The notes under the pieces are model-generated. The model did no database searches. It saw only the letters and a list, made by a program, of their open reading frames with translations, and was not told where the DNA came from. From NCBI GenBank assembly GCA_013393545.1, contig JABXHG010000003.1, positions 1 to 47,251 on the forward strand: a stretch of 47,251 bases of DNA. The letters are read 5' to 3'. Source of the DNA: Alteromonadaceae bacterium. GTDB taxonomy: Bacteria > Pseudomonadota > Gammaproteobacteria > Pseudomonadales > Oleiphilaceae. Position 1 is the stretch's first letter. Each line of letters opens with the position of its first letter. Of this stretch, positions 5,582 through 47,111 are shown piece after piece. Both the position numbers and the translations under genes were made by a program.

Positions 5582-6425
5582 CACCGGCCTGAGCTGCCAA
5601 ACCCTGCTGCGCAAAGCCGCCGCCCGTATCGGCGGCGACTCCCCAAAACTGGACGCTGAACTGCTGTTGGCTCACGTGACTGGCTTGAGCCGAACCAGTT
5701 TTATTGCCTGGCCGGAACGGGAAATCTCCGGGGAGCAGACGGAACAATTCCTCGCCCTGGTAGCCGAGCGAGTAGCAGGTAAGCCCATTGCCTATCTGCT
5801 GGGTGAACAGGAGTTCTGGTCACTGCCCCTGCAAGTCAGCCCCGATACCTTGATTCCCCGGCCCGATACCGAATGCCTGGTGGAAGCCGCGCTGGAATTG
5901 CCGCTACCGGCGAACGCCCGGGTGCTGGATCTGGGCACTGGCACCGGCGCCATCGCCCTGGCCCTAGCCAGCGAAAAGCCTGAGTGGCGCATCATGGCCA
6001 GCGACCGCGTTGCCGAAGCCGTGGCACTGGCCAGAGCCAACAGCGAAGCCTTGAACCTTCCAATTTCCGTGGTGCAAAGCTACTGGTTTTCCGGGCTGCC
6101 GGCGGGCCAGCGGTTTGATCTGCTGATCTCCAACCCGCCGTATATTCCGGCCAGCGATCATCATTTAAAGGAAGGGGATGTGCGTTTTGAGCCGGAATCG
6201 GCGTTGGTTGCCGGCGAAGGCGGCCTGGACGATATCCGTTTTCTGATCTCCGAAGCCCGGCATTGGCTGGCCGCTGAAGGTTTTCTCATGCTGGAACACG
6301 GCTATGACCAGGCAGAAGTCGTGCGCGGGTTGTTCGCCGCCGCTGGCTGGCGGAACATCGAAACCCGGCGGGACTACGGCGGCAACGAGCGCCTGACCCA
6401 GGCCATGAAGCCGGCCACAACCTGA
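5571..6425 (+). CDS. prmC: release factor glutamine N5-methyltransferase
   Basis: PrmC (HemK) transfers a methyl group from S-adenosylmethionine to the glutamine of the GGQ loop in RF1 and RF2. The SAM-binding motif [16 protein letters not shown] and the catalytic NPPY in [10 protein letters not shown] are both intact. I place the start at the ATG at 5571, which overlaps the last codons of prfA by 11 bases and gives a 284-residue protein starting MSSDTGLS; the open frame extends further upstream only by running through prfA. The N-terminal helical domain (about 70 residues) that docks on release factors is present. The length is normal. Confidence 0.95.
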
Positions 6426-35774: not shown

Positions 35775-35858
35775 GCCCCAAGTGATGAGTAGGGTGGCAA
35801 CGACAAGGATATGTCGTTAGTCTGGGCTGACAGTGAAGGTGAATGCAAAGGAGTGCAA

Positions 35859-36818
35859 GTGAGCCGGTTTGACCGCATCTACAAAATCCACGAACTGCTC
35901 AAAAACGCCCGAAAGCCCGTGCCCATGCGGGTTTTCACTGAAACCCTGGAAGCCAGTCGAAATACCGTCACCCGCGATTTCGAGTTCCTGCGCGACTCAT
36001 TGGGCGCGCCCCTCGAATACTGCCGCGAACACAACGGCCACCGTTACAATGCCAGCGCCCCCGAATTTGAGCTCCCCGGTTTTTGGATGAACCCCGCAGA
36101 GCTTTATGCCCTGCTGGCCTGCGAAAATTTGCTGGAAAACGTGCAACCCGGCCTTGTCGCATCTCGCCTGGCGCCACTGAAACAGAAAATTCAGCAGTTA
36201 TTGGGCGAATCCGGCCACGATGCCGTGAAAATCAACGAGCGCATCCGTATTCAGCCTATCCAGACACGAAGCGCCTCCAGCCATACGTTCGACCCCGTGG
36301 CCCAGGCAACCCTCTCTGGACAATGCCTCCGGTTCCGTTACCTCGCCCGAAGTGGCGGTGGTGAGAAAGCACGACAGGTACACCCTCAACGGCTGCTCCA
36401 CTACCGCTCCAACTGGTATTTACTGGCCCTGTGCGAGAAGGCAAACGAGCTACGCTTGTTTTCACTGGACCGGATAATGGCGCCTGAAATACAGGACACG
36501 CCTGCAAGCCCTATATCTCCGGAGCAGTTGGATACCTTCACCAGTGCCGGCTTTGGCATCTTCGGCGGAGACCCGCAAGCCACCGCCCATTTGCGATTTT
36601 CCGAACACGCCGCCCAATGGGTAGCGGACGAAACCTGGCACCCGGACCAGGCCGGCGAGTGGCGCGATGATGGTTTCCACTTGCAGGTTCCCTATTCCGA
36701 CTCCCGGGAGCTGGTGATGGATGTGTTGCGTTATGGGCCAGATGCGGAGGTGTTGGGGCCGGAGGATCTGCGGTCGGAAGTGGCTGAGAGGGTTCGGAAG
36801 ATGGTGGGGATTTATTGA
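35859..36818 (+). CDS. WYL-domain transcriptional regulator
   Basis: 319 residues from a GTG at 35859, chosen because AAAGGAG lies five bases before it; the frame also has an ATG at 35811 that adds 16 unrelated residues. The N-terminal winged helix-turn-helix is of the DeoR type (RIYKIHELLKNARKP and ASRNTVTRDFEFLRD). The WYL domain is named for the motif seen in RSNWYLLALCE near residue 185. A C-terminal WCX-like extension ends the protein. WYL proteins commonly sense ligands, often nucleic acids or nucleotides, and are frequent next to CRISPR-Cas and other defence genes. cas1 starts 104 bases downstream, so it may regulate the locus, but no target is shown. Confidence 0.88.
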   Translation: MSRFDRIYKIHELLKNARKPVPMRVFTETLEASRNTVTRDFEFLRDSLGAPLEYCREHNGHRYNASAPEFELPGFWMNPAELYALLACENLLENVQPGLVASRLAPLKQKIQQLLGESGHDAVKINERIRIQPIQTRSASSHTFDPVAQATLSGQCLRFRYLARSGGGEKARQVHPQRLLHYRSNWYLLALCEKANELRLFSLDRIMAPEIQDTPASPISPEQLDTFTSAGFGIFGGDPQATAHLRFSEHAAQWVADETWHPDQAGEWRDDGFHLQVPYSDSRELVMDVLRYGPDAEVLGPEDLRSEVAERVRKMVGIY

Positions 36819-36893: not shown

Positions 36894-36922
36894 GGTTCGG
36901 ATACTTTTCAGAGGAAATGCAC

Positions 36923-37900
36923 ATGGACGATTTGTCGCCGTCGGATCTGAAAGCAATACTGCACTCAAAACGCGCGAATCTGTACTACCTCGAATATTGT
37001 CGGGTAATGCAAAAAGATGGCCGCGTGCTATACCTGACAGACACAGAGAAGGATAACTTGTACTTCAATATCCCGATCGCCAATACGACTGTTCTTCTGT
37101 TAGGCAATGGTACCTCTATTACACAGGCTGCCATGCGTATGCTGGCACAGGCCGGTGTATTGGTTGGATTTTGCGGTGGAGGAGGTACGCCACTCTATAT
37201 GGCTTCCGAAGTCGAGTGGCTAACTCCACAAAGTGAGTACCGGCCAACTGAGTATTTGCAGGGCTGGCTGGCGTTCTGGTTTGATGAAACTCAACGGTTA
37301 GAAGCTGCCAGGCGTTTTCAGTATGCCCGTATCGAATACTTGCAGAAAACCTGGCGGAATGACCGGGAGCTAAAGGTAGAAGGCTTTGAAGTCACCGATA
37401 GCCCAATCCAGAAAGCTCTTGGTGTCTTCGCATCACGTACCGAGAGTGCAGAAAAGCCCGCGGACTTACTTCTGACTGAAGCTCAACTGACGAAAGCACT
37501 CTATAAATACGCTTCGAGTGCCTCCGGCCAAACAAATTTCACCCGGCAGCATCAGTCGCTGGACAAGGCCAACGACTTTCTGAACCACGGTAATTACCTG
37601 GCGTATGGCTTGGCTGCTTGTTGTTTGTGGGTTTTGGGCATTCCCCATGGTTTTGCTGTAATGCACGGCAAGACCCGCAGGGGCGCTTTAGTGTTTGATG
37701 TGGCCGATCTTATTAAAGATGCTTTAATCCTGCCCTGGGCATTTATTTGTGCCAAGGAGAATGCGACGGAACAAGAGTTTCGGCAGCAGGTACTTCAGGC
37801 TTTCATTGATCACAAATCCCTGGATTTCATGTTCGATACAGTGAAGAGCATTGCTCTACAGAACTACTCCCAGGAGATGATTGAGGAGCGGGGCCTATGA
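36923..37900 (+). CDS. cas1: type I-F CRISPR integrase Cas1
   Basis: Cas1 with Cas2 integrates new spacers at the leader end of the array. The 325-residue protein from the ATG at 36923 starts MDDLSPSDLKAILHSKRANLYYLEYCRV, nearly the textbook type I-F Cas1 N-terminus; GAGGAA sits 7 bases upstream. An ATG six bases earlier (36917) is less likely. The typical segments NIPIANTTVLLLGNGTSITQAAMRMLAQAGVLVGFCGGGGTPL are here. The catalytic metal ligands appear in LLLTEAQLTK (Glu), AVMHGKT (His) and VFDVADLIKD (Asp pair). The stop overlaps the cas2-3 start, as is usual in type I-F. Confidence 0.97.
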   Translation: MDDLSPSDLKAILHSKRANLYYLEYCRVMQKDGRVLYLTDTEKDNLYFNIPIANTTVLLLGNGTSITQAAMRMLAQAGVLVGFCGGGGTPLYMASEVEWLTPQSEYRPTEYLQGWLAFWFDETQRLEAARRFQYARIEYLQKTWRNDRELKVEGFEVTDSPIQKALGVFASRTESAEKPADLLLTEAQLTKALYKYASSASGQTNFTRQHQSLDKANDFLNHGNYLAYGLAACCLWVLGIPHGFAVMHGKTRRGALVFDVADLIKDALILPWAFICAKENATEQEFRQQVLQAFIDHKSLDFMFDTVKSIALQNYSQEMIEERGL

Positions 37901-40900
37901 TGGTCACTTTTGTTTCTCAATGCGAAAAAAATGCCATCAGGAAAACCCGTCGAGTGCTGGATGCTTTCGCCAACCGGATTGGTGACAACACCTGGCAAAC
38001 TCTGATCACTGAGGATGGGTTGGATACTGTCAGACGGATGTTGCGCCAGACAGCCAGCAAGAGTACTGCTGTCAGTTGCCACTGGATCAGGTCTCGTTCT
38101 CGCACACAGTTACTGTGGGTTGTTGGCAATAAAAAACAGTTCAACCCGGAAGGCCATGTGCCAGTGAACCGGACAGAGCAGGATTTGTTGTTGTCGGATG
38201 AAGATGATAACTGGAAATACTTGCCCCTGATTAAAGCTTTTACCGGGCTGGCGGGCCTGCTGCACGACTGGGGCAAAGCAACCAAACTGTTTCAGGATAA
38301 ACTGGACCCGGAATCGGATAACAAGTTTAAAGGCGATCCTTTGCGTCATGAATGGATTTCCTGTTTACTGCTAACGGCTTTGATCAAAGCCGGGAAAGAC
38401 CCGAGCCAGGACCAAAGCTGGCTTGAGCCATTTTTGAACGAGTCTATCGACGAGCAAGCGTTGCAAGCCAGCTTGCTCGCAGTTTCCGATAATGGTTCAC
38501 CATTCTGTGATTTGCCAGATGCGGCCAGCCTGCTGCTATGGCTGGTTTTGTCTCACCATCGTCTCCCTAAATCTGAACATCCTAATAAATTTGGGGATCA
38601 GACGAATGAAACACCTCAGCGGCTGTTGGCACGTATTAGCCAGCAATGGGGTTATGAAAATCATTTTGACGATAATGAGTTTCACCAACGGTTAGCCGAC
38701 TGTTTTATCTTTCCGCAAGGGTTGCTATCTCGCTCGTCAAACTGGTTGAAAGCTTTAAGTCACCGTGCAAGACAACTTCAGGAATATTTGCCAGTTTTTG
38801 TCGCTTCGGTGCAGGACGGCAGCTGGCGGACCATTGCTCATCATGCTCGACTTTGCCTGATGCTGGGGGATCATTACTACTCTTCACAACCACAAGATGT
38901 GGAGTGGCCAGTAAGTGTCAACTTGTTTGCCAATACCCACAGTGATGGTCCGAATCAGGGACAGCTCAAACAGCGACTGGACGAGCATGTGGTCAAGGTA
39001 TCCGAAGTGGCGGTACGTGCCTGTCGAATGTTGCCGCGATTCGAACGTGATACTCCGGTTGCCGAGAATATCCAGAAACTTAAACCACCCAAGAAAGTAG
39101 CCCCTGAAATCAAAAGGCAGTTCGGCTGGCAGGATAAAGCAGTTTCCGCGATAAAGAATTATCGACAAGAAAATGACGACAAGGTCAGTGGTTACTTCAT
39201 TGTAAATATGGCCAGCACTGGCCGGGGTAAAACTCTGGCCAACGCCAAGATCATGCAAGCCTTGTCAGATGACCAGCAAAGTCTCCGGTTTATTTTGGCG
39301 CTGGGGCTTCGCACGCTGACTTTACAGACCGGTGATGAGTACCGTGAGCGAGTAGGGCTTAATGAAGAAGAGTTGGCGGTTCTGATCGGCTCCCGCGCAA
39401 TACTGGAACTGCATAAAGGAGAGAATGAGCCCCAAGACAAAGAAACCCAGCCACAAGACTTTGAAGCGTTCGGTTCAGAATCTCACGAACCTCTTCTGAG
39501 TGAACAGGATGAGCTGCATGGCTTTGATGACGATAATCGCTGGCAGGATCTGCTGCCGGAAGAGGAATTAACAACCGTTCTGACCAGCCGGAAAGAGCGT
39601 GCCTTGCTTTATGCGCCAGTGCTGGCATGCACCATTGACCACATGATGGCCGCAACTGAAACAACACGGGGTGGGCGCTACATCCTACCCAGCCTTCGAC
39701 TTATGTCGTCAGATTTGGTCATTGATGAGATTGATGATTTCACAGGGCAGGATCTAGTGGCCATTGGTCGCCTGATATACCTAGCCGGTATGTTGGGGCG
39801 CAAAGTCATGATCTCTTCGGCCACCATTCCGCCCGATCTGGCCCTCGGTTATTTCACTGCTTATCAGAGAGGTTGGGCGTTATTTGCCGCGAGCCGCCAT
39901 CAAAATAGCCAGGTAGCCTGTGGTTGGGCAGACGAGTTCAAGACTCAGGTAGTCACAGTGAATCAGGGACAGGACGCCACCACCTATTATCAGTCGGCCC
40001 ATAAGGATTTCGTTGGAAAACGAGTAGCAAAGTTGCGTGACGAACCGGTGAAACGCAGAGCCGAAATTGTTCCTTTGGTCGAACCAGAATCGGAAGAAAC
40101 TCGAGAGGACAGGTTTTTCAGTACGATCCAGCAAACAATCCTCTCCAAACATTCAGAGCACCATGAACAAGATATCAAAACAGGGCGCAACGTCTCCTTT
40201 GGCATGGTGCGCTGCGCCAATATTCGGCCCTGTGTCGCATTAACCGAATACTTGCTGGACGCCGAATGGCCCGATCACGTTGAAATTCGAACAATGGCTT
40301 ATCACAGCCAGCAGGTGCTGTTGTTGCGTCATGCGCAAGAAAAACATCTTGACCAGGCGCTAAAACGCAAAACGCCGGTTAACGATCCCGAAGGCGTTTT
40401 TCAGCAGCCGGTGATACGAGAGCATTTGGATTCCGGTGACAGCAAGGATCTGATTTTTATTTTGGTCACCACTCCCGTGGAGGAAGTAGGGCGTGACCAC
40501 GATTTTGACTGGGCAGTGGTAGAGCCATCGTCATATCGATCCATTATTCAGCTGGCAGGGCGAGTGCGCCGTCATCGACCTGCGGATGCCGATAACGAAA
40601 CACCGAACATGGGCCTGCTGCAATACAACCTGAAAGGCTATCGGGGTGAGAAGAAAGATGTTTTCAGTCGGCCTGGTTATGAACAGGGGGGATGGCAACT
40701 TTGCTCCCGAAACCTCTTGGATCTCGTGGATGAGAAAGCTCTGAGGCGGAGCGTAGACGCTACTCCTCGTATGCTGAAGGATTCCAACGTTCAATTAGCT
40801 GCTTTGGAGCATTTTGCTATTGGCCAGACCCTCGGATGTCATTATCTCAAAGGTGAAGCAAAACCGAGCGAAGACCCCGCCTCCAGCCCGAGAAACCTTT

Positions 40901-41286
40901 GGGGCTACACCAATGACCATTGGTGGATGACCGCCTTGCCTCAGCACTTTAATCGCTTCCGAAACAGCGAGCCGGGGGTAAATCTTTATCTGGTTTTGAA
41001 TGATAACGGAAAACGATCCTTTCAGATTTATGATCGTCAGAGTGGTTGGGTCCCGGTGGAAAAAATGCTGAATATCCAGCACCAACCATTACCTCCCGAG
41101 AAAGCACAGAAGCTGTGGCTTAAACGTGATTATGAAGAGTTGGTTTCAACGCAAAGCGAACGAATGGCTATGGATGTAATGCGAACTTCTCAGCGGTTAG
41201 GAGAGATCAATCTGAGTCATCACAGGGATGGGAATCGCTACCGCTACAACGATCAGTTGGGGCTCGTTCGAGATGAGAAGGGCTAG
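37897..41286 (+). CDS. cas3f: type I-F Cas2-Cas3 fusion nuclease-helicase
   Basis: A 1129-residue fusion typical of type I-F. The N-terminal Cas2 part (about 1-90, VTFVSQCEKNAIRKTRRVLDAF) supports adaptation. The HD nuclease follows with LLHDWGKATKLF (near residue 125) and LVLSHHRLP. The superfamily 2 helicase shows Walker A MASTGRGKTLAN (near 437), VIDEIDDF (DEx box, near 607), motif III ISSATIPP, and motif VI QLAGRVRRHRP (near 885). The C-terminal domain completes the protein. The start overlaps the cas1 stop; a second ATG at 37900 is equally possible. The stop codon lies inside a 10-bp hairpin. HD and helicase motifs look intact, so the effector should be active. Confidence 0.96.
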   Translation: MMVTFVSQCEKNAIRKTRRVLDAFANRIGDNTWQTLITEDGLDTVRRMLRQTASKSTAVSCHWIRSRSRTQLLWVVGNKKQFNPEGHVPVNRTEQDLLLSDEDDNWKYLPLIKAFTGLAGLLHDWGKATKLFQDKLDPESDNKFKGDPLRHEWISCLLLTALIKAGKDPSQDQSWLEPFLNESIDEQALQASLLAVSDNGSPFCDLPDAASLLLWLVLSHHRLPKSEHPNKFGDQTNETPQRLLARISQQWGYENHFDDNEFHQRLADCFIFPQGLLSRSSNWLKALSHRARQLQEYLPVFVASVQDGSWRTIAHHARLCLMLGDHYYSSQPQDVEWPVSVNLFANTHSDGPNQGQLKQRLDEHVVKVSEVAVRACRMLPRFERDTPVAENIQKLKPPKKVAPEIKRQFGWQDKAVSAIKNYRQENDDKVSGYFIVNMASTGRGKTLANAKIMQALSDDQQSLRFILALGLRTLTLQTGDEYRERVGLNEEELAVLIGSRAILELHKGENEPQDKETQPQDFEAFGSESHEPLLSEQDELHGFDDDNRWQDLLPEEELTTVLTSRKERALLYAPVLACTIDHMMAATETTRGGRYILPSLRLMSSDLVIDEIDDFTGQDLVAIGRLIYLAGMLGRKVMISSATIPPDLALGYFTAYQRGWALFAASRHQNSQVACGWADEFKTQVVTVNQGQDATTYYQSAHKDFVGKRVAKLRDEPVKRRAEIVPLVEPESEETREDRFFSTIQQTILSKHSEHHEQDIKTGRNVSFGMVRCANIRPCVALTEYLLDAEWPDHVEIRTMAYHSQQVLLLRHAQEKHLDQALKRKTPVNDPEGVFQQPVIREHLDSGDSKDLIFILVTTPVEEVGRDHDFDWAVVEPSSYRSIIQLAGRVRRHRPADADNETPNMGLLQYNLKGYRGEKKDVFSRPGYEQGGWQLCSRNLLDLVDEKALRRSVDATPRMLKDSNVQLAALEHFAIGQTLGCHYLKGEAKPSEDPASSPRNLWGYTNDHWWMTALPQHFNRFRNSEPGVNLYLVLNDNGKRSFQIYDRQSGWVPVEKMLNIQHQPLPPEKAQKLWLKRDYEELVSTQSERMAMDVMRTSQRLGEINLSHHRDGNRYRYNDQLGLVRDEKG

Positions 41287-41306
41287 CTGCCCTTCCGGCA
41301 GCTAGC
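41282..41306. terminator. 10-bp hairpin over the cas2-3 stop codon
   Basis: GCTAGCTGCC (41282-41291) pairs perfectly with GGCAGCTAGC (41297-41306) around a 5-base loop; the cas2-3 TAG (41284-41286) is in the left arm. There is no T-run on either strand, so it is not a textbook intrinsic terminator. It could end or stabilise the cas2-3 message, or the antisense-direction small RNA described next. Its inner part, CTGCC-5-GGCAG, also resembles a Cas6f hairpin. Confidence 0.6.
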
Positions 41307-41331
41307 TCATGCTGCCTGTGTGGCAGAAAAA
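41304..41331 (-). repeat. degenerate CRISPR repeat 2 (psi-R2)
   Basis: Aligned to the 28-base array repeat, positions 6-21 are CTGCCACACAGGCAGC against CCGCCACGCAGGCGGC: 13 of 16 identical. The two stem differences (position 7 C to T, position 19 G to A) form a compensated pair, leaving a 5-bp stem and 5-base loop. The handle (positions 22-28) is lost, which would not matter for a 3'-terminal repeat. Confidence 0.65.
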
Positions 41332-41350
41332 TAAATAATAAACACATAGT

Positions 41351-41378
41351 TTTCTAAGCCGCCTTCTGGGCGGAATCG
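41351..41378 (-). repeat. degenerate CRISPR repeat 1 (psi-R1)
   Basis: Aligned to the array repeat on the minus strand, the last 14 bases (AGGCGGCTTAGAAA) are identical, including the whole 8-base crRNA 5' handle. The left stem CCGCC is kept, the loop differs (CAGAA against ACGCA), and the first five bases do not match. It therefore keeps exactly what Cas6f cutting and Csy loading need. Confidence 0.8.
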
Positions 41379-41381
41379 ACG

Positions 41382-41390
41382 ATTCTATCA
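41382..41390 (-). promoter_or_regulatory. candidate extended -10 promoter for the small RNA
   Basis: The minus strand reads TGATAGAAT, an extended -10 element (TGn plus TAGAAT, five of six bases of TATAAT). Transcription would start about seven bases on, near 41375, just ahead of the psi-R1 stem and within the five non-conserved bases. No good -35 box is seen, which an extended -10 can tolerate. Confidence 0.4.
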
Positions 41391-41428
41391 GTCCTCAGCA
41401 CAATCTCCTATGTGAACTTAGTGGTAGA

Positions 41429-41448
41429 AAACAATAAACATATAGTGG
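41429..41448 (-). promoter_or_regulatory. protospacer-like target of the mini-CRISPR guide, with CC PAM
   Basis: On the minus strand CC (41448-41447) is followed by ACTATATGTTTATTGTTT (41446-41429). The pseudo-spacer begins ACTATGTGTTTATTATTT: 16 of 18 bases match, with differences at positions 6 and 15. CC directly 5' of the protospacer is the type I-F PAM, and position 6 is a flipped-out, unread base in type I guides. The site contains a TATAGT (plus strand 41441-41446) and abuts a TTGAGA -35-like box, so binding would block the cas8f promoter. Confidence 0.7.
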
Positions 41449-41477
41449 TTGAGATTTTGGTGGTCGTCGTTTAGTCT
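41449..41477 (+). promoter_or_regulatory. candidate cas8f operon promoter
   Basis: TTGAGA (41449-41454) and TAGTCT (41472-41477) are separated by 17 bases, giving a start near 41484 and a short leader before the cas8f ATG at 41510. An alternative -10, TATAGT at 41441-41446, has no good -35. In either case the guide target overlaps or touches the promoter. Confidence 0.4.
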
Positions 41478-41509
41478 TGCTCTAAGTTCAGACGGAACGG
41501 GAACGAACC

Positions 41510-42784
41510 ATGCTTGATACAGTGATCGAAAACTTTTTTGCCGAACGTAAAGAGGCTTGGCTAAAGAAAGCCCTCAAGGCCTCCATGTCAGAGGCGGAAG
41601 TACTAGAAAAAGAACAGGAGTGCGAGGATGTCTTCGCCCTCAAGAATTGGCTGCCAAATGCAGCCAAGCGCGCAGGGCAAATTTCGATGGCTACACACCC
41701 CTGCACGTTCAGTCACCCCAGTGCCCGAAAGAATAAGAATGGGTACGCCAGTTCAGTTATTGCCCAGTCGGAACCATCGCCGGATGGTTTTTTGCGGAGT
41801 GGAAATCTGCAGGTAGAACCCGATGCGTTAGGTAATGCCGCCGCATTGGATGTCTATAAGTTTCTGACTTTGGTCCTGAAAGATGGGAAAACACTGCTGC
41901 AGCATATTCAGGATGACACCGGCTTGGCGCAAGCTCTGTTGGAAAAAGCTGACGGCAGCCCGGAGGTTTTGAAAAAAGGCTTTCTCGCGATGGTGGCCAC
42001 GAAAGACGAAGCCATAACCAGCTCCAAAATAAAGCAAGTCTATTTTCCGGTTGGGGGGGATGTTGAAGCTGAAGGCTACCACCTGCTGTCAATTTTGACT
42101 CACTCCGGGCACCTGTTCGAGATGCGAAAGCGCTTGGATCGATTGCGGTTCTCGGAAGAAGTAAAAGCAGCCAGAGAGCTGAGAAAGAACAAACAAAGCT
42201 CTGATGCGGGATATCAGGAAATATACAACCTGACAACGATAGGTTTCGGTGGCACCAAGCCTCAGAACATAAGCGTCCTGAACAACCAAAATGCCGGTAA
42301 AGCCCATCTCCTGCTGTCGATGCCACCGGAACTGACGCGTAGAAACGTACGCCTGCCCACACGAAACTTCTTCGACGATGTGCTTTATTCCAGGCAACTT
42401 CAAGAGACCGTCCAGGCCTTTCATCGCCTGCTAACAACGGATTATAACAACGTGCATATCCGTGACGGTCGCGATAACCGGGTTCAGGAATATGTGGACC
42501 ACCTTATCTTGAGGATGTGGCAGGTACGCAACGGGTTTGAAAATCAGCCTCAAGAAGCTCGGCCAGAAAGCTTGCGCGGGTATCAAAAGCTATGGCTTTT
42601 CCCGGAACATCTGGATCAGCGCAACAACGATGCGCCATGGCTCAAAACCCTGATTGAAGATGCCAGTCGTCATTTTATCCGTAGCTATGAAAAAGTGGCA
42701 GGAGCATCAGTCATCCAGCTGGGCGATACAGAGATGGAAGCTGTTTCACTGGTGATTGAACAAAATAAAGAGGCTTTACTATGA
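41510..42784 (+). CDS. csy1: type I-F Csy1 / Cas8f large subunit
   Basis: Csy1 is the large subunit of the Csy interference complex; it binds the crRNA 5' handle with Cas5f and recognises the CC PAM on target DNA. The 424-residue protein matches the family by overall layout, for example LPNAAKRAGQISMATHPCTFSHPSARKN near the N-terminus, NLTTIGFGGTKPQNISVLNNQNAGKAHLLLSMPPEL in the middle and GYQKLWLFPEHLDQRNN near the C-terminus. It starts the interference operon, after a 223-base gap with the mini-CRISPR element, and overlaps csy2 by four bases. No truncation is seen. Confidence 0.96.
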   Translation: MLDTVIENFFAERKEAWLKKALKASMSEAEVLEKEQECEDVFALKNWLPNAAKRAGQISMATHPCTFSHPSARKNKNGYASSVIAQSEPSPDGFLRSGNLQVEPDALGNAAALDVYKFLTLVLKDGKTLLQHIQDDTGLAQALLEKADGSPEVLKKGFLAMVATKDEAITSSKIKQVYFPVGGDVEAEGYHLLSILTHSGHLFEMRKRLDRLRFSEEVKAARELRKNKQSSDAGYQEIYNLTTIGFGGTKPQNISVLNNQNAGKAHLLLSMPPELTRRNVRLPTRNFFDDVLYSRQLQETVQAFHRLLTTDYNNVHIRDGRDNRVQEYVDHLILRMWQVRNGFENQPQEARPESLRGYQKLWLFPEHLDQRNNDAPWLKTLIEDASRHFIRSYEKVAGASVIQLGDTEMEAVSLVIEQNKEALL

Positions 42785-43701
42785 GTACGCGCCGATTATT
42801 AGTGCTTCCGCATCTTAAAGTTCACAACGCCAACGCACTCTCCAGTCCCTTCACCATTGGCTTCCCTGCCATGACCGCCTGGCTTGGATTTGTGCATGCA
42901 CTTGAACGCAAACTCAAAGCCAGCGATTACCCCACGCTTCGGCTGGTAGCAACTGGCGTAATCAGTCATCAGTGCGATCTGCAAACCTATCAAGGCCCTG
43001 GCGACTACGTTCACTCCATTATTGGTACCGCTAACCCCCTGGATAAAGATGGTCAGCGTTCGGCCTTTATTGAAGAGGCTCGCTGTCATTTGGATGTCAG
43101 TTTGTTAATTGAGTACCGCGCTGAAGATGAAGATCTTGATCAGATTGAGAAACCAGAATTTTCTGAGCTACTAAATCGCCTCCTGAATCATATGAAGGTT
43201 GCTGGTGGAGATTTGATGGATTTTGAGTCCCCTAAATTATCGGCACTGGACGATAGCGAAGACAACGAGATACGAAAGTTGATGTGTAGCTTAATGCCCG
43301 GTTTCGTCCTGCTTGAGCGTCGGGAGTTGATGCAGAAGGCAATGGAGCAGGGTGCCGATGCGCTGGATGCGCTGCTCGACTACGTAACGGTGCATCATCA
43401 ATGTGAGCAAGATGAGAGTGGTGATGTTATTTGGCGCAGCCACCGCAAAACCCATGGTTGGATTGTGCCTATCGCTACCGGCTTTCAAGGCATCAGCCCT
43501 TTGGGGCAGGCCAAGAATCAGCGTGACCCAGACACGCCACATCGTTTCGCCGAAAGCATGGTGACTTTAGGCGAATTCAAAATGGCACACCGAATAAACG
43601 ACTTGGATGAGGCTCTGTGGGAATACAACGCAGACCTCCCCAATGACCAGTATCTGTGTCAGCAGGTACATACTGAAAGCTCGCACAACGGCCTTTTTTA
43701 A
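42781..43701 (+). CDS. csy2: type I-F Csy2 / Cas5f subunit
   Basis: Cas5f pairs with Csy1 at the 5' end of the crRNA and helps hold the 8-base handle. The 306-residue protein opens with the typical RRLLVLPHLKVHNANALSSPFTIGFPAMTAWLGFVHALER, a RAMP-type first beta strand and helix. Later conserved blocks include MPGFVLLERRELM and HGWIVPIATGFQGISPLG. Start overlaps the csy1 stop (ATGA), and csy3 follows after 31 bases with its own strong ribosome binding site, in keeping with the need for more Csy3 than Csy2 per complex. Confidence 0.96.
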   Translation: MSTRRLLVLPHLKVHNANALSSPFTIGFPAMTAWLGFVHALERKLKASDYPTLRLVATGVISHQCDLQTYQGPGDYVHSIIGTANPLDKDGQRSAFIEEARCHLDVSLLIEYRAEDEDLDQIEKPEFSELLNRLLNHMKVAGGDLMDFESPKLSALDDSEDNEIRKLMCSLMPGFVLLERRELMQKAMEQGADALDALLDYVTVHHQCEQDESGDVIWRSHRKTHGWIVPIATGFQGISPLGQAKNQRDPDTPHRFAESMVTLGEFKMAHRINDLDEALWEYNADLPNDQYLCQQVHTESSHNGLF

Positions 43702-43732
43702 AGCCCGATTACGGAAGAAAGGGAGTAATAAC

Positions 43733-44758
43733 ATGGCGAAGACCAACGACACTGCATCGGTTCTGGCATTCGAGAAAAAGCTTGTTCCATCTGATGGCTA
43801 TTTTTATGGTACTTGCTGGGATAGCAAGACAGACACAGTCCCTCTGGAACTGCGTGAGAAGTCCGTGCGGGGCACTATATCGAACCGCCTCAAGGCCGCT
43901 GTAAAAAATGATCCGGCTAAACTTAATGCGGAAGTCGAAAAGCCGAACCTGCAAACCATCGATGCCTGCGCACTTGGGACGGACCAGGATACGCTTAAAC
44001 ATCAATTCACGCTGAAAGTGTTGGGCGGGGTTGAGCGTCCTTCTGCCTGTAACAATGCTCAGTTCAAGCAGCGTTACCATCAGGCTGCCCGGGATTATAT
44101 TGAGAAGGAAGGGTTTCAAGAGCTGGGGCGCCGCTATGCGCATAATATTGCCAATGCCCGTTTCCTTTGGCGTAACCGTGTGGGGGCAGAGCAAATTGAA
44201 GTGCAGGTAAGAATACTGAATAGAGGGCATGATGAACAATGGGCCTTTGATGCTTTGAACTACAGCACCCGGAGCTTTGAGCAGCGGGACGAGAAGATTG
44301 ATGCTCTGGGCGAAAAGATTGCTACAGCTTTGGCCAGTGGCGATGGCGCGTTAGTCCTGGAAATCACTACTTTTGCTCAATTGGGTAATGCTCAGGAAGT
44401 TTACCCCTCTGAAGAGTTGGTGCTGGATAAAGGCAAAAGTAAAAAGAGCAAAGTTCTGTATGAAGTGAAAGGGCACGCAGCCATGCACTCACAAAAGATT
44501 GGCAACGCGCTGAGATCCATTGATACCTGGTACCCAGCATACGGAGATGAAGAGCAGAGTGCAGGTGCAATCGCGATTGAGCCATACGGAGCAGTGACAA
44601 ATCTCGGGAAAGCCTATCGAACGCCGAAAGAAAAGCAGGACTTTTATACTCTTTTTGATTCCTGGGCTCGGGGCGGTCAGCTTGATCGAATTGAAGACGA
44701 GCACTACGTGATGGCAGTGCTGGTGCGTGGTGGTGTTTTTGGTGAAAGCGACAAGTAG
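43733..44758 (+). CDS. csy3: type I-F Csy3 / Cas7f backbone subunit
   Basis: Csy3 polymerises along the crRNA (six copies on a normal 32-base spacer) to form the spiral backbone. I place the start at the ATG at 43733 (MAKTNDTASVLAFEKKLVPSDG), preceded by AAAGGGAG eight bases upstream; the frame runs back into csy2 but without family similarity. The product is 341 residues, the normal length. Characteristic segments are ARFLWRNRVGAEQIEVQVR and YPSEELVLDKGKSKKSKVLYEVKGHAAMHSQKIGNALRSIDTWYP. A 19-base guide such as the one proposed upstream would hold fewer Csy3 subunits. Confidence 0.97.
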   Translation: MAKTNDTASVLAFEKKLVPSDGYFYGTCWDSKTDTVPLELREKSVRGTISNRLKAAVKNDPAKLNAEVEKPNLQTIDACALGTDQDTLKHQFTLKVLGGVERPSACNNAQFKQRYHQAARDYIEKEGFQELGRRYAHNIANARFLWRNRVGAEQIEVQVRILNRGHDEQWAFDALNYSTRSFEQRDEKIDALGEKIATALASGDGALVLEITTFAQLGNAQEVYPSEELVLDKGKSKKSKVLYEVKGHAAMHSQKIGNALRSIDTWYPAYGDEEQSAGAIAIEPYGAVTNLGKAYRTPKEKQDFYTLFDSWARGGQLDRIEDEHYVMAVLVRGGVFGESDK

Positions 44759-44766
44759 GGGTAGGC

Positions 44767-45393
44767 ATGAACTTCTACCAGGATATTACTTTGCTACCGG
44801 ATGCGGATATTGCCTTGGGGTTTCTCTGGCAAAAGCTGTATCAGCAAGTGCACATCGCCTTGGTTGATAACAAAATTGGCGAAAATTTGAGCGCAGTTGC
44901 GGTCGGATTTCCGGAATATGGTCAGCGCGGGTTTCCACTGGGAAGGAAGCTTCGGCTTTACGCCGCAGAGCAAAGCCAGTTGGAGAAATTCGACATCGCG
45001 TCCTATGTGCAGCGTCTCTCAGATTATGTTCATGTGAAGTCCATACAGTCGGTTCCTCAAGCGACCGGTTATGTGTGTTTCAGGCGCCATCATGTCAAAG
45101 GCGAGGCTCGTATTGAAAAAGACCAGCAAGAGAAAGCGGAACGTTGGGCTGCCAAGTCGGGAAAGCCCTTGAGAGAGTGTCTGCTGGCTTTGGAGACGAC
45201 TAGGCCAAAGCCTGATACGGACCTGCCTTTCATATGGATGGAAAGTCAGCAGGCGAAAAAACGTGAGGGCGGTGATGCCCGCAGGTTCCCTTTGTTTATA
45301 AATATGGAAGAGGCGAAAAGCGAACAGGTGGGTGAATTGAACTGTTACGGTCTCAGCTCACCCAGCGCACCCACGGCGCTACCTGCCTTCTAA
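44767..45393 (+). CDS. cas6f: type I-F Cas6f / Csy4 crRNA endoribonuclease
   Basis: Cas6f cuts the array transcript 3' of the repeat hairpin and stays bound to the crRNA 3' end. The 208-residue protein starts MNFYQDITLLPDADIALGFLWQKLYQQVH, which puts a histidine at position 29, the catalytic residue in Pseudomonas Csy4. The arginine-rich helix that grips the RNA stem corresponds to the region around RHHVKGEARIEKDQQEKAERW, and the C-terminal block FPLFINMEEA plus NCYGLSS matches the family. It starts 8 bases after csy3. The array leader begins after its stop. Confidence 0.95.
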   Translation: MNFYQDITLLPDADIALGFLWQKLYQQVHIALVDNKIGENLSAVAVGFPEYGQRGFPLGRKLRLYAAEQSQLEKFDIASYVQRLSDYVHVKSIQSVPQATGYVCFRRHHVKGEARIEKDQQEKAERWAAKSGKPLRECLLALETTRPKPDTDLPFIWMESQQAKKREGGDARRFPLFINMEEAKSEQVGELNCYGLSSPSAPTALPAF

Positions 45394-45523: not shown

Positions 45524-47111
45524 GTTCGCCGCCACGCAGGCGGCTTAGAAATGACCGTGAGTGGTTGTGGTTCACGATGGGCTGTTCGCCGCCACGCAGG
45601 CGGCTTAGAAAAAACGGATCAATCGGCCACGGACGCACAACATGTTCGCCGCCACGCAGGCGGCTTAGAAAATCCATATCAGTACCTTTCATGTTCAGGA
45701 TTAGTTCGCCGCCACGCAGGCGGCTTAGAAATCGATCTCTGCCGTTTGAGGGTGGCCGTCAACGTTCGCCGCCACGCAGGCGGCTTAGAAAGAGCTGCTG
45801 ACGGGGGCCGTATTCCTTGTTAGGTTCGCCGCCACGCAGGCGGCTTAGAAATATCGTCGTTGGCCATCCCAAGGACAACGCCCGTTCGCCGCCACGCAGG
45901 CGGCTTAGAAAAGCTTCTCGATCGTCGCCACGCGGACGCTGGAGTTCGCCGCCACGCAGGCGGCTTAGAAATTACTGGCGCGTCGAATGCAGCAACCCAG
46001 ACTGTTCGCCGCCACGCAGGCGGCTTAGAAAGCAATAAAGTAAACCGGGGGTTTGCATTATTGGTTCGCCGCCACGCAGGCGGCTTAGAAATCCGAGATC
46101 TTGAAAGCTGGATTTTGATTTGCGTTCGCCGCCACGCAGGCGGCTTAGAAAGATCCCCTCGAAGGTCTCGAGCTTGGCAAATTGTTCGCCGCCACGCAGG
46201 CGGCTTAGAAAAATGGCTGACTTTTTCGCAACAGCAAGCGCGAGTTCGCCGCCACGCAGGCGGCTTAGAAATGTTCGAGCAGTGCGGCCGCCAATACGAT
46301 ATTGTTCGCCGCCACGCAGGCGGCTTAGAAATCCGTAAGACGGTCGAGGCCTACGACCCGAAGGTTCGCCGCCACGCAGGCGGCTTAGAAATTTCAGAGA
46401 GCAATACTCCAATGTGGCGCAATGTTCGCCGCCACGCAGGCGGCTTAGAAATTCATGTGTTCGGGGTTCACAAAGCAGGGCACGTTCGCCGCCACGCAGG
46501 CGGCTTAGAAAAATAGCCCATCCGTGGCGACCATTCTTGTCCCGTTCGCCGCCACGCAGGCGGCTTAGAAAGTCCGAACCGCCACCGTCGGAACCACCAG
46601 ACGGTTCGCCGCCACGCAGGCGGCTTAGAAACCGTCGGGGGTGGTGGCGATCACTTCGCCCTTGTTCGCCGCCACGCAGGCGGCTTAGAAAATACACACG
46701 CCGATGCTGTCCGCGTTGTGGGCGTTCGCCGCCACGCAGGCGGCTTAGAAAAGCCATGCGAGACAACCATGCAGGAAGGCCGGGTTCGCCGCCACGCAGG
46801 CGGCTTAGAAAAATTCCGGTCTCTTTTTCCAGTTGTCTCCCGGGTTCGCCGCCACGCAGGCGGCTTAGAAAAACTGGAGAAGGTTCGCCAAGGCCGTCCA
46901 GGTGTTCGCCGCCACGCAGGCGGCTTAGAAACGGCTCTGCCTTCCCTGAACGCGGGAAAATACGTTCGCCGCCACGCAGGCGGCTTAGAAAATCACGACC
47001 AGCCAAGCAATAAAAGACCAAAGGTTCGCCGCCACGCAGGCGGCTTAGAAATTTCCGAAAGTCTGCGTAATCCTCCCGCCCGCGTTCGCCGCCACGCAGG
47101 CGGCTTAGAAA
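45524..47111 (+). CRISPR. type I-F CRISPR array, 27 repeats and 26 spacers
   Basis: Twenty-seven copies of an identical 28-base repeat (starting GTTCGCCGCC, ending GGCGGCTTAGAAA) alternate with 26 spacers of exactly 32 bases, giving a strict 60-base period. The repeat has the type I-F form: a GCCGCC / GGCGGC stem around a 5-base loop and an 8-base handle CTTAGAAA for crRNA 5' ends. The leader is on the cas6f side, so the newest spacers are at the low-coordinate end. The last repeat is as perfect as the first, unlike a normal trailer end, and is followed by 13 bases and the end of an insertion sequence. No spacer was seen to match other parts of this window by eye. Confidence 0.99.

Follow-up and report, generated by a model that had tools for sequence, protein, structure and literature searches.

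The gap between cas2-3 and cas8f in a type I-F CRISPR-Cas locus holds, on its minus strand, a degenerate mini-CRISPR that very probably yields a guide RNA cut by Cas6f. To judge from its sequence, this guide would lead the cell's own Cascade to a CC-flanked site beside the predicted cas8f promoter and repress cas8f-cas5f-cas7f-cas6f without cutting. The locus lies in a stretch of 47,251 nucleotides, here called the window. An initial annotation of this DNA had read the element as a dedicated guide RNA of CreR type, with no target named. A putative CC-flanked target was found in the same gap, beside the predicted cas8f promoter, which lends support to that proposal.

The window carries a type I-F locus with cas1f, cas2-3, cas8f, cas5f, cas7f, cas6f and an array (Table 1), and 223 bases separate cas2-3 from cas8f. 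A WYL/WCX-domain protein encoded at 35811-36818 (Pfam PF13280, PF25583) adjoins cas1 upstream and is possibly a further regulator. According to the initial annotation, the minus strand at 41304-41378, about 4 kb from the real array, carries a 19-nt spacer between two degraded array repeats; our analysis confirms the coordinates and the strand and agrees on the distance. Compared with the array repeat, the first copy (psiR1) keeps all ten stem bases, all eight bases of the crRNA handle, two of the five loop bases and none of the five leading bases, its overall identity of 20/28 having been counted by eye. The stem of the second copy (psiR2) reads CTGCC/GGCAG in place of CCGCC/GGCGG, a paired change that keeps the hairpin. 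Both hairpins and the exact 8-nt handle CTTAGAAA are retained, just as had been noted. Only two of eight bases are left in the psiR2 handle, which the guide would not need. The predicted 47-nt RNA, running from 41358 to 41312, has in its coordinates the span given earlier.

Ordinary arrays have near-identical repeats and spacers of about 32 nt, whereas the repeats here keep 20/28 and 16/28 bases and the spacer has 19 nt. An Rfam search over 41000-41700 gave no match up to E 1, and no near match to the gap was found in the E. coli collection. In the minimum-energy RNA fold hairpin 1 forms and hairpin 2 does not, which counts against autorepression. The 60 nt following psiR2 fold with a z of -2.5. 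The terminator scan did not call the hairpin that spans the cas2-3 stop codon, since it is not followed by a T run. No promoter or terminator above threshold was listed by the scan, and no promoter was found for the guide itself.

Table 1. Features of the type I-F locus and of the cas2-3/cas8f gap in the window.
Feature	Position	Strand	Basis or remarks
cas1f	36917..37900	+	NCBIfam TIGR03637
cas2-3 (cas3f)	37897..41286	+	NCBIfam TIGR02562
10-bp perfect hairpin over cas2-3 stop codon and far end of mini-CRISPR	41282..41306		candidate terminator, both strands
psiR2, second degenerate repeat	41304..41331	-	16/28 bases kept; hairpin 41312-41326
predicted mature guide RNA, 47 nt (8 + 19 + 20)	41312..41358	-	inferred from I-F crRNA processing
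mini-CRISPR spacer, 19 nt	41332..41350	-	read from sequence; begins ACTATGTGTTTATTATT
psiR1, first degenerate repeat	41351..41378	-	20/28 bases kept; hairpin 41359-41373; handle CTTAGAAA 41351-41358
target, matched part	41430..41446	-	15/17 bases versus spacer; mismatches at 6 and 15
target PAM CC (GG on + strand)	41447..41448	-	sequence match
predicted cas8f promoter	41449..41477	+	TTGAGA 41449-41454, 17 bases, TAGTCT 41472-41477; same placement in relatives
cas8f (csy1), first gene of effector operon	41510..42784	+	NCBIfam TIGR02564
cas5f (csy2)	42781..43701	+	NCBIfam TIGR02565
cas7f (csy3)	43727..44758	+	NCBIfam TIGR02566
cas6f (csy4)	44767..45393	+	NCBIfam TIGR02563
CRISPR array, 27 repeats, period 60	45524..47111	+	repeat GTTCGCCGCCACGCAGGCGGCTTAGAAA

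CC is the PAM of type I-F systems. On the strand of the spacer and in the same gap, a CC (41448-41447) is followed by ACTATATGTTTATTGTT (41446 down to 41430). As in CreR, the spacer thus has PAM-flanked partial complementarity to a cas promoter, the promoter here being a prediction. On the plus strand TTGAGA comes directly after the PAM, and the cas8f start codon lies 61 bases past it. The predicted promoter matches 8 of 12 consensus bases and falls below the scan threshold, a further point against autorepression. A placement in which the target covered a cas8f -10 box, TATAGT, was dropped; relatives place the promoter pair directly after the PAM. Taken alone, the match in the window is good, not overwhelming. 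Shuffled gaps reach it in none of 3000 trials, while among 100000 dinucleotide-shuffled spacers 203 reach the observed 14/15 beside a CC, which counts against the match. It is the relatives that decide.

Related I-F loci were surveyed in two sets. The first comprised the window and 80 loci kept from a cas8f search (81 loci). A scan of these that was blind to targets and required a 5-bp hairpin with a handle after it (0-1 mismatch) found guides in 22 of the 35 loci whose gap measures 100 nt or more; in the 44 loci with short gaps there was a single handle-like hit, in L059, for which there is no CC target, and two of the 81 could not be judged. When bases 1-17 of each of the 22 spacers were matched to the gap of the same locus, with no PAM required, the best match was CC-flanked every time. 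Guide and target agree at positions 1-5, 7-11 and 13-17 in 20-22 of the 22 guides, and at positions 6, 12 and 18 in 8, 9 and 9. In type I Cascade every sixth base is flipped out and unread, so the clustering of mismatches at 6, 12 and 18 fits the expectation for such a complex. Guides and targets vary in letters among loci, yet keep pairing. Two spacers fit the target of another locus one base better than their own (16 versus 15), namely the window spacer with the L005 target and the L009 spacer with that of L057, which is a point against this pairing.

The second set came from 369 evenly drawn Gammaproteobacteria genomes, 34 of which had a cas8f match; the loci of 28 were fetched, and there were three repeats of the first set and three fragments. 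A whole-locus scan then covered 112 loci, consisting of both sets and the named records L112-L114; L097, L104 and L109 duplicate L046, L002 and L042 and were left out. A guide with a CC target was found in 38 of the 112, in the cas3-cas8f gap in 30, before cas3 in five and behind the array in three (Providencia). The 38 include the doubtful L113 (13/15, with the target inside cas1). The 30 gap guides exclude L066 and L072, in which, as in L042, a gap guide was found by relaxed rules only. In the second set, 8 of the 28 loci have a gap guide. When loci are grouped by estimated gap, gap guides occur in 30 of 49 with at least 200 nt, in none of 53 with less than 100 nt and in none of the four intermediate ones; six loci had no context, and the gaps of L115-L142 are overestimates that run to the first aligned Cas8f residue. 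The 19 loci of the 49 that gave no gap guide under the strict rule count against autorepression. The initial annotation had taken a lack of conservation in relatives that keep the gap as grounds for giving up its reading; this check was run and did not refute it, the handle, the hairpin and the CC-flanked spacer match recurring in 30 of the 49.

That the matches are not due to chance is suggested by two controls. When 1036 canonical array spacers were compared with their own gap, one match of at least 13/15 was found, flanked by GA, and none was CC-flanked. Among the 39 placements in the 112 loci with at least 13/15 after a handle with 0-1 mismatch, the flank is CC in 37, AA in one and CG in one, compared with CC in 1 of 23 after a 2-mismatch handle. 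The CC-flank signal therefore tracks a good handle.

The anatomy of the element recurs across the loci. The loop-closing pair of psiR1 is C-G in 20, T-A in eight, A-T in one and G-C in one of the 30 gap guides, whose stems were required by the search. A second hairpin, which was no search criterion, follows 15-31 nt plus 5 downstream in every one of the 35 guides that lie in the gap or ahead of cas3. On average 7.7 of 8 handle bases are kept in psiR1 and 3.7 in psiR2, the conservation of the psiR1 handle and stem being partly by construction because both were search criteria. The spacers are AT-rich, and all 35 are shorter than 32 nt (19 or 20 nt in 19 guides; 24-28 in 10; 29-31 in three; 15, 18 and 21 once each). 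Downstream of psiR2, 25 of the 35 loci have a stable hairpin (z < -2 versus mononucleotide shuffles); five of the six guides running toward cas8f lack one. Where the target is on the minus strand (23 loci), a -35/-10 pair spaced by 17 bases begins 0-2 bases past the PAM in 20 loci, and the summed promoter score is 184, compared with 148.3 (sd 4.6, maximum 163) in 500 shuffles.

Guides are also found in other places. In L013, L017, L021 and L042, guide and CC target precede cas3 rather than cas8f; the guide seems to follow whichever promoter drives the operon. A second, weaker guide of L042 lies in the cas3-cas8f gap. The fifth, doubtful case is L113, an Acinetobacter record labelled phage, in which a complete I-F locus carries a guide-like element between cas1 and cas3 (around 2466) with a weak target, 13/15, inside the end of cas1. 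No guide was found in L111, the one cas8f relative among viral contigs. In Providencia L008 (around 11396), L016 (around 11338) and L070 (around 10788), a degenerate two-hairpin guide lies behind the array. Its CC target, matching at 14-15 of the 15 bases scored, stands 70-160 nt beyond the guide and is followed by a tiny hydrophobic ORF. We regard this element as a candidate CreTA module, its toxin being a peptide or an RNA.

The stretch between target and cas8f has features of its own in some loci. A TACTGAATAAGTA-like motif, seen by eye, recurs there in Campylobacterota (L039, L040, L045, L055, L062); it resembles a further repeat hairpin and may serve as a Cas6f site within the leader of cas8f. 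In L034, L035 and L046, about 235-270 nt separate target and cas8f and contain, by eye, an apparent small ORF of some tens of codons, which could be the guide's regulated partner. In L116, L119, L121, L123 and L128, a hairpin-forming sequence separates cas8f from the target promoter; judged by eye, it is a candidate small structured RNA of CreT type.

On a tree of 80 Cas8f proteins, 24 rows have a gap guide (L066 and L072 counted), with 21 changes against a shuffled-label mean of 20.9. The nearest Cas8f relative of the window on this tree, L001 (Marinobacter oulmenensis, 84% identical), has a gap of only 11 nt, which counts against autorepression. A cas8f match was found in 4 of 163 genomes of the family of L001 (L001, L003, L145, L146), and L001 and L003 are gapless. 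In Amphritea, L005 has the whole cassette (5758-6001) and L006 (4792-4824) is without it, Cas8f and flanks being almost identical. The cassette comes and goes as a unit, by exchange or loss, and the Amphritea pair is a natural experiment with the cassette present or absent.

Could the guide be the CreA antitoxin of a CreTA module, repressing a gene in the gap for a small toxic RNA or peptide, with cas8f a mere neighbour? The I-F CreTA of Acinetobacter, as excerpted from PMC10097628, shares place and layout, with two pseudo-repeats, a 20-nt spacer, a CC PAM and a divergent toxin. Moreover, the PAM lies 184-573 bases ahead of cas8f in 9 of the 23 loci with a minus-strand target, which leaves room for a toxin, and these nine may be toxin modules. 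In the other 14, the window among them, this distance is 58-73 bases, so that the predicted promoter would drive cas8f directly. The window has only about 33 bases from the predicted -10 box to the cas8f start; no mini-ORF of at least 5 codons closes there, in a scan that speaks to coding toxins only, and the Shine-Dalgarno toxin mini-ORF found downstream of the target in CreTA is lacking. An antitoxin role is thus improbable in the window. We give even less credence to a decayed relic, that is, a former mini-array or autorepressor that has lost its function in this strain. Both repeats are indeed degraded and the distribution on the Cas8f tree is patchy, but decay is limited to parts that the guide does not need (the psiR1 leading bases and the psiR2 handle), whereas stems, handle and PAM are preserved, as is the match in the seed, and the psiR2 stem has changed as a pair.

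Two further explanations do without repression by the guide. The hairpins may act at the RNA level only, as a terminator or a Cas6f-cut leader, the promoter-side match being a by-product of local duplication; the stable hairpins after psiR2 in 25 of 35 loci and the AT-rich spacers would suit such a role. However, duplication would not put mismatches on 6, 12 and 18 from the PAM, stop at 17 and begin after CC, and guide and target lie on opposite strands in L031 and L052, which makes this explanation very improbable. We hold it to be the least probable of all that the element is a decoy tying up Cas6f and Cas7f in the manner of Racrs, which are ectopic I-F repeats bound by these two proteins. 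The Racrs described in the excerpts of PMC10651486 are solitary and viral, whereas the window has two hairpins, a spacer and a PAM-flanked target inside a cas locus.

We therefore favour repression of the effector operon by its own guide. A minus-strand transcript would be made and then cut by Cas6f, and the guide would be carried by a Cascade with about four Cas7f subunits, not six. Bound to the target just upstream of the -35 box, this Cascade would keep RNA polymerase off, and its R-loop would be too short to trigger Cas2/3. The outcome would be a negative feedback in which spare Cascade turns down its own genes. By analogy with the CreR model in the excerpted reviews, plentiful array crRNAs or Cascade-blocking anti-CRISPRs would relieve the repression.

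The repression we propose in the window is based, by analogy, on work with short I-F guides and on repression by the Csy complex of Acinetobacter. In the I-F1 Cascade of Aggregatibacter, as excerpted from PMC7296934, spacer length equals 6N-4 for N Cas7f subunits, and complexes with a spacer shortened from 32 nt by 6 or 12 nt still load and bind CC-flanked DNA without triggering Cas2/3. Binding and suppression weaken with spacer shortening, no shortened complex lets Cas2/3 cut, and suppression in cells is gone when at least 18 nt are removed (same excerpts). As binding weakens with shortening, binding may be weak for a guide of 19 nt that has additional mismatches. Compared with these excerpted data, most surveyed spacers, near 20 or 26 nt, are within the published range of binding without cutting. 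The Acinetobacter guide (CreA, sequenced; 8 + 20 + 20 nt) comes from the same gap and, in the excerpts of PMC10097628, represses transcription via the Csy complex with no need of Cas1 or Cas3; it does not pair at 6, 11 and 18, and a change at 12 has no effect.

On balance we lean towards a more general view, in which I-F loci of Gammaproteobacteria and Campylobacterota would share an exchangeable feedback cassette between cas3 and cas8f. Made up of guide and target promoter, and in Gammaproteobacteria mostly a terminator hairpin as well, this cassette would uncouple the effector operon from cas1-cas3 and let Cascade set its own level. The guide, its length set in steps of one Cas7f subunit (for the most part close to 20 or 26 nt, with four or five subunits), would bind and be too short to call Cas2/3, so that guide length alone would let one effector both kill and control itself. 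If true, RNA-guided autorepression would extend to type I-F, and it would be seen how I-F loci could keep the effector low yet respond to anti-CRISPRs. The structural idea that spacer length, in Cas7-subunit steps, decides between binding and cutting would become testable in nature, and the 30 natural gap guides with their targets, diverse in sequence, would map the mismatches tolerated by a repressing Cascade.

How does the element compare with known systems? CreRs are cas-regulating RNAs (Liu et al. 2023, Cell Host Microbe, as cited in PMC13131331, PMC12737573 and PMC12948488). The excerpted text of the citing papers assigns them to types I-B, I-E and V-A (PMC13131331) or to type I and V-A (PMC12737573) and describes them as generally uncoupled from a toxin gene (PMC12737573). 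No description of an I-F CreR was found in the open-access literature among the matches listed, and the original CreR paper may contain one. Like the CreRs of these excerpts, the window element is a mini-CRISPR of degenerate repeats and a spacer, away from the array and adjoining cas genes, whose guide is partly complementary to a predicted cas promoter and would repress it via the cell's own effector. It differs in that the locus is I-F, in that the target adjoins only the promoter predicted for the effector operon and lies upstream of its -35 box, and in that the spacer is 13 nt shorter than those of the window's array.

Closest in place and layout is the I-F CreTA of Acinetobacter (Wang et al. 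2023, PMC10097628), which, as excerpted, also has a pair of pseudo-repeats, a spacer of about 20 nt and a CC-flanked target in the cas3-csy1 gap, with a divergent guide and positions 6 and 18 unpaired. There a toxin mini-ORF comes after the target, whereas the promoter in the window leads straight into cas8f; the Acinetobacter target lies downstream of the start site and that of the window upstream of the -35 box, which is a point against autorepression. The truncated I-F1 Cascades of Aggregatibacter (PMC7296934, as excerpted) likewise load short spacers and bind a CC-flanked target without triggering Cas2/3, but these were made in the laboratory and the 19-nt spacer of the window is natural. 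With Racr, the RNA anti-CRISPR of type I-F, the element shares an ectopic I-F repeat expected to bind Cas6f; in the excerpts of PMC10651486, Racr is a solitary viral repeat without a targeting spacer that inhibits the complex, and the window element is neither solitary nor viral. CreTA in I-F gaps and CreR as a class are thus known already. By its anatomy the window element appears to be a CreR, and it would likely be a type I-F autorepressor of the effector operon.
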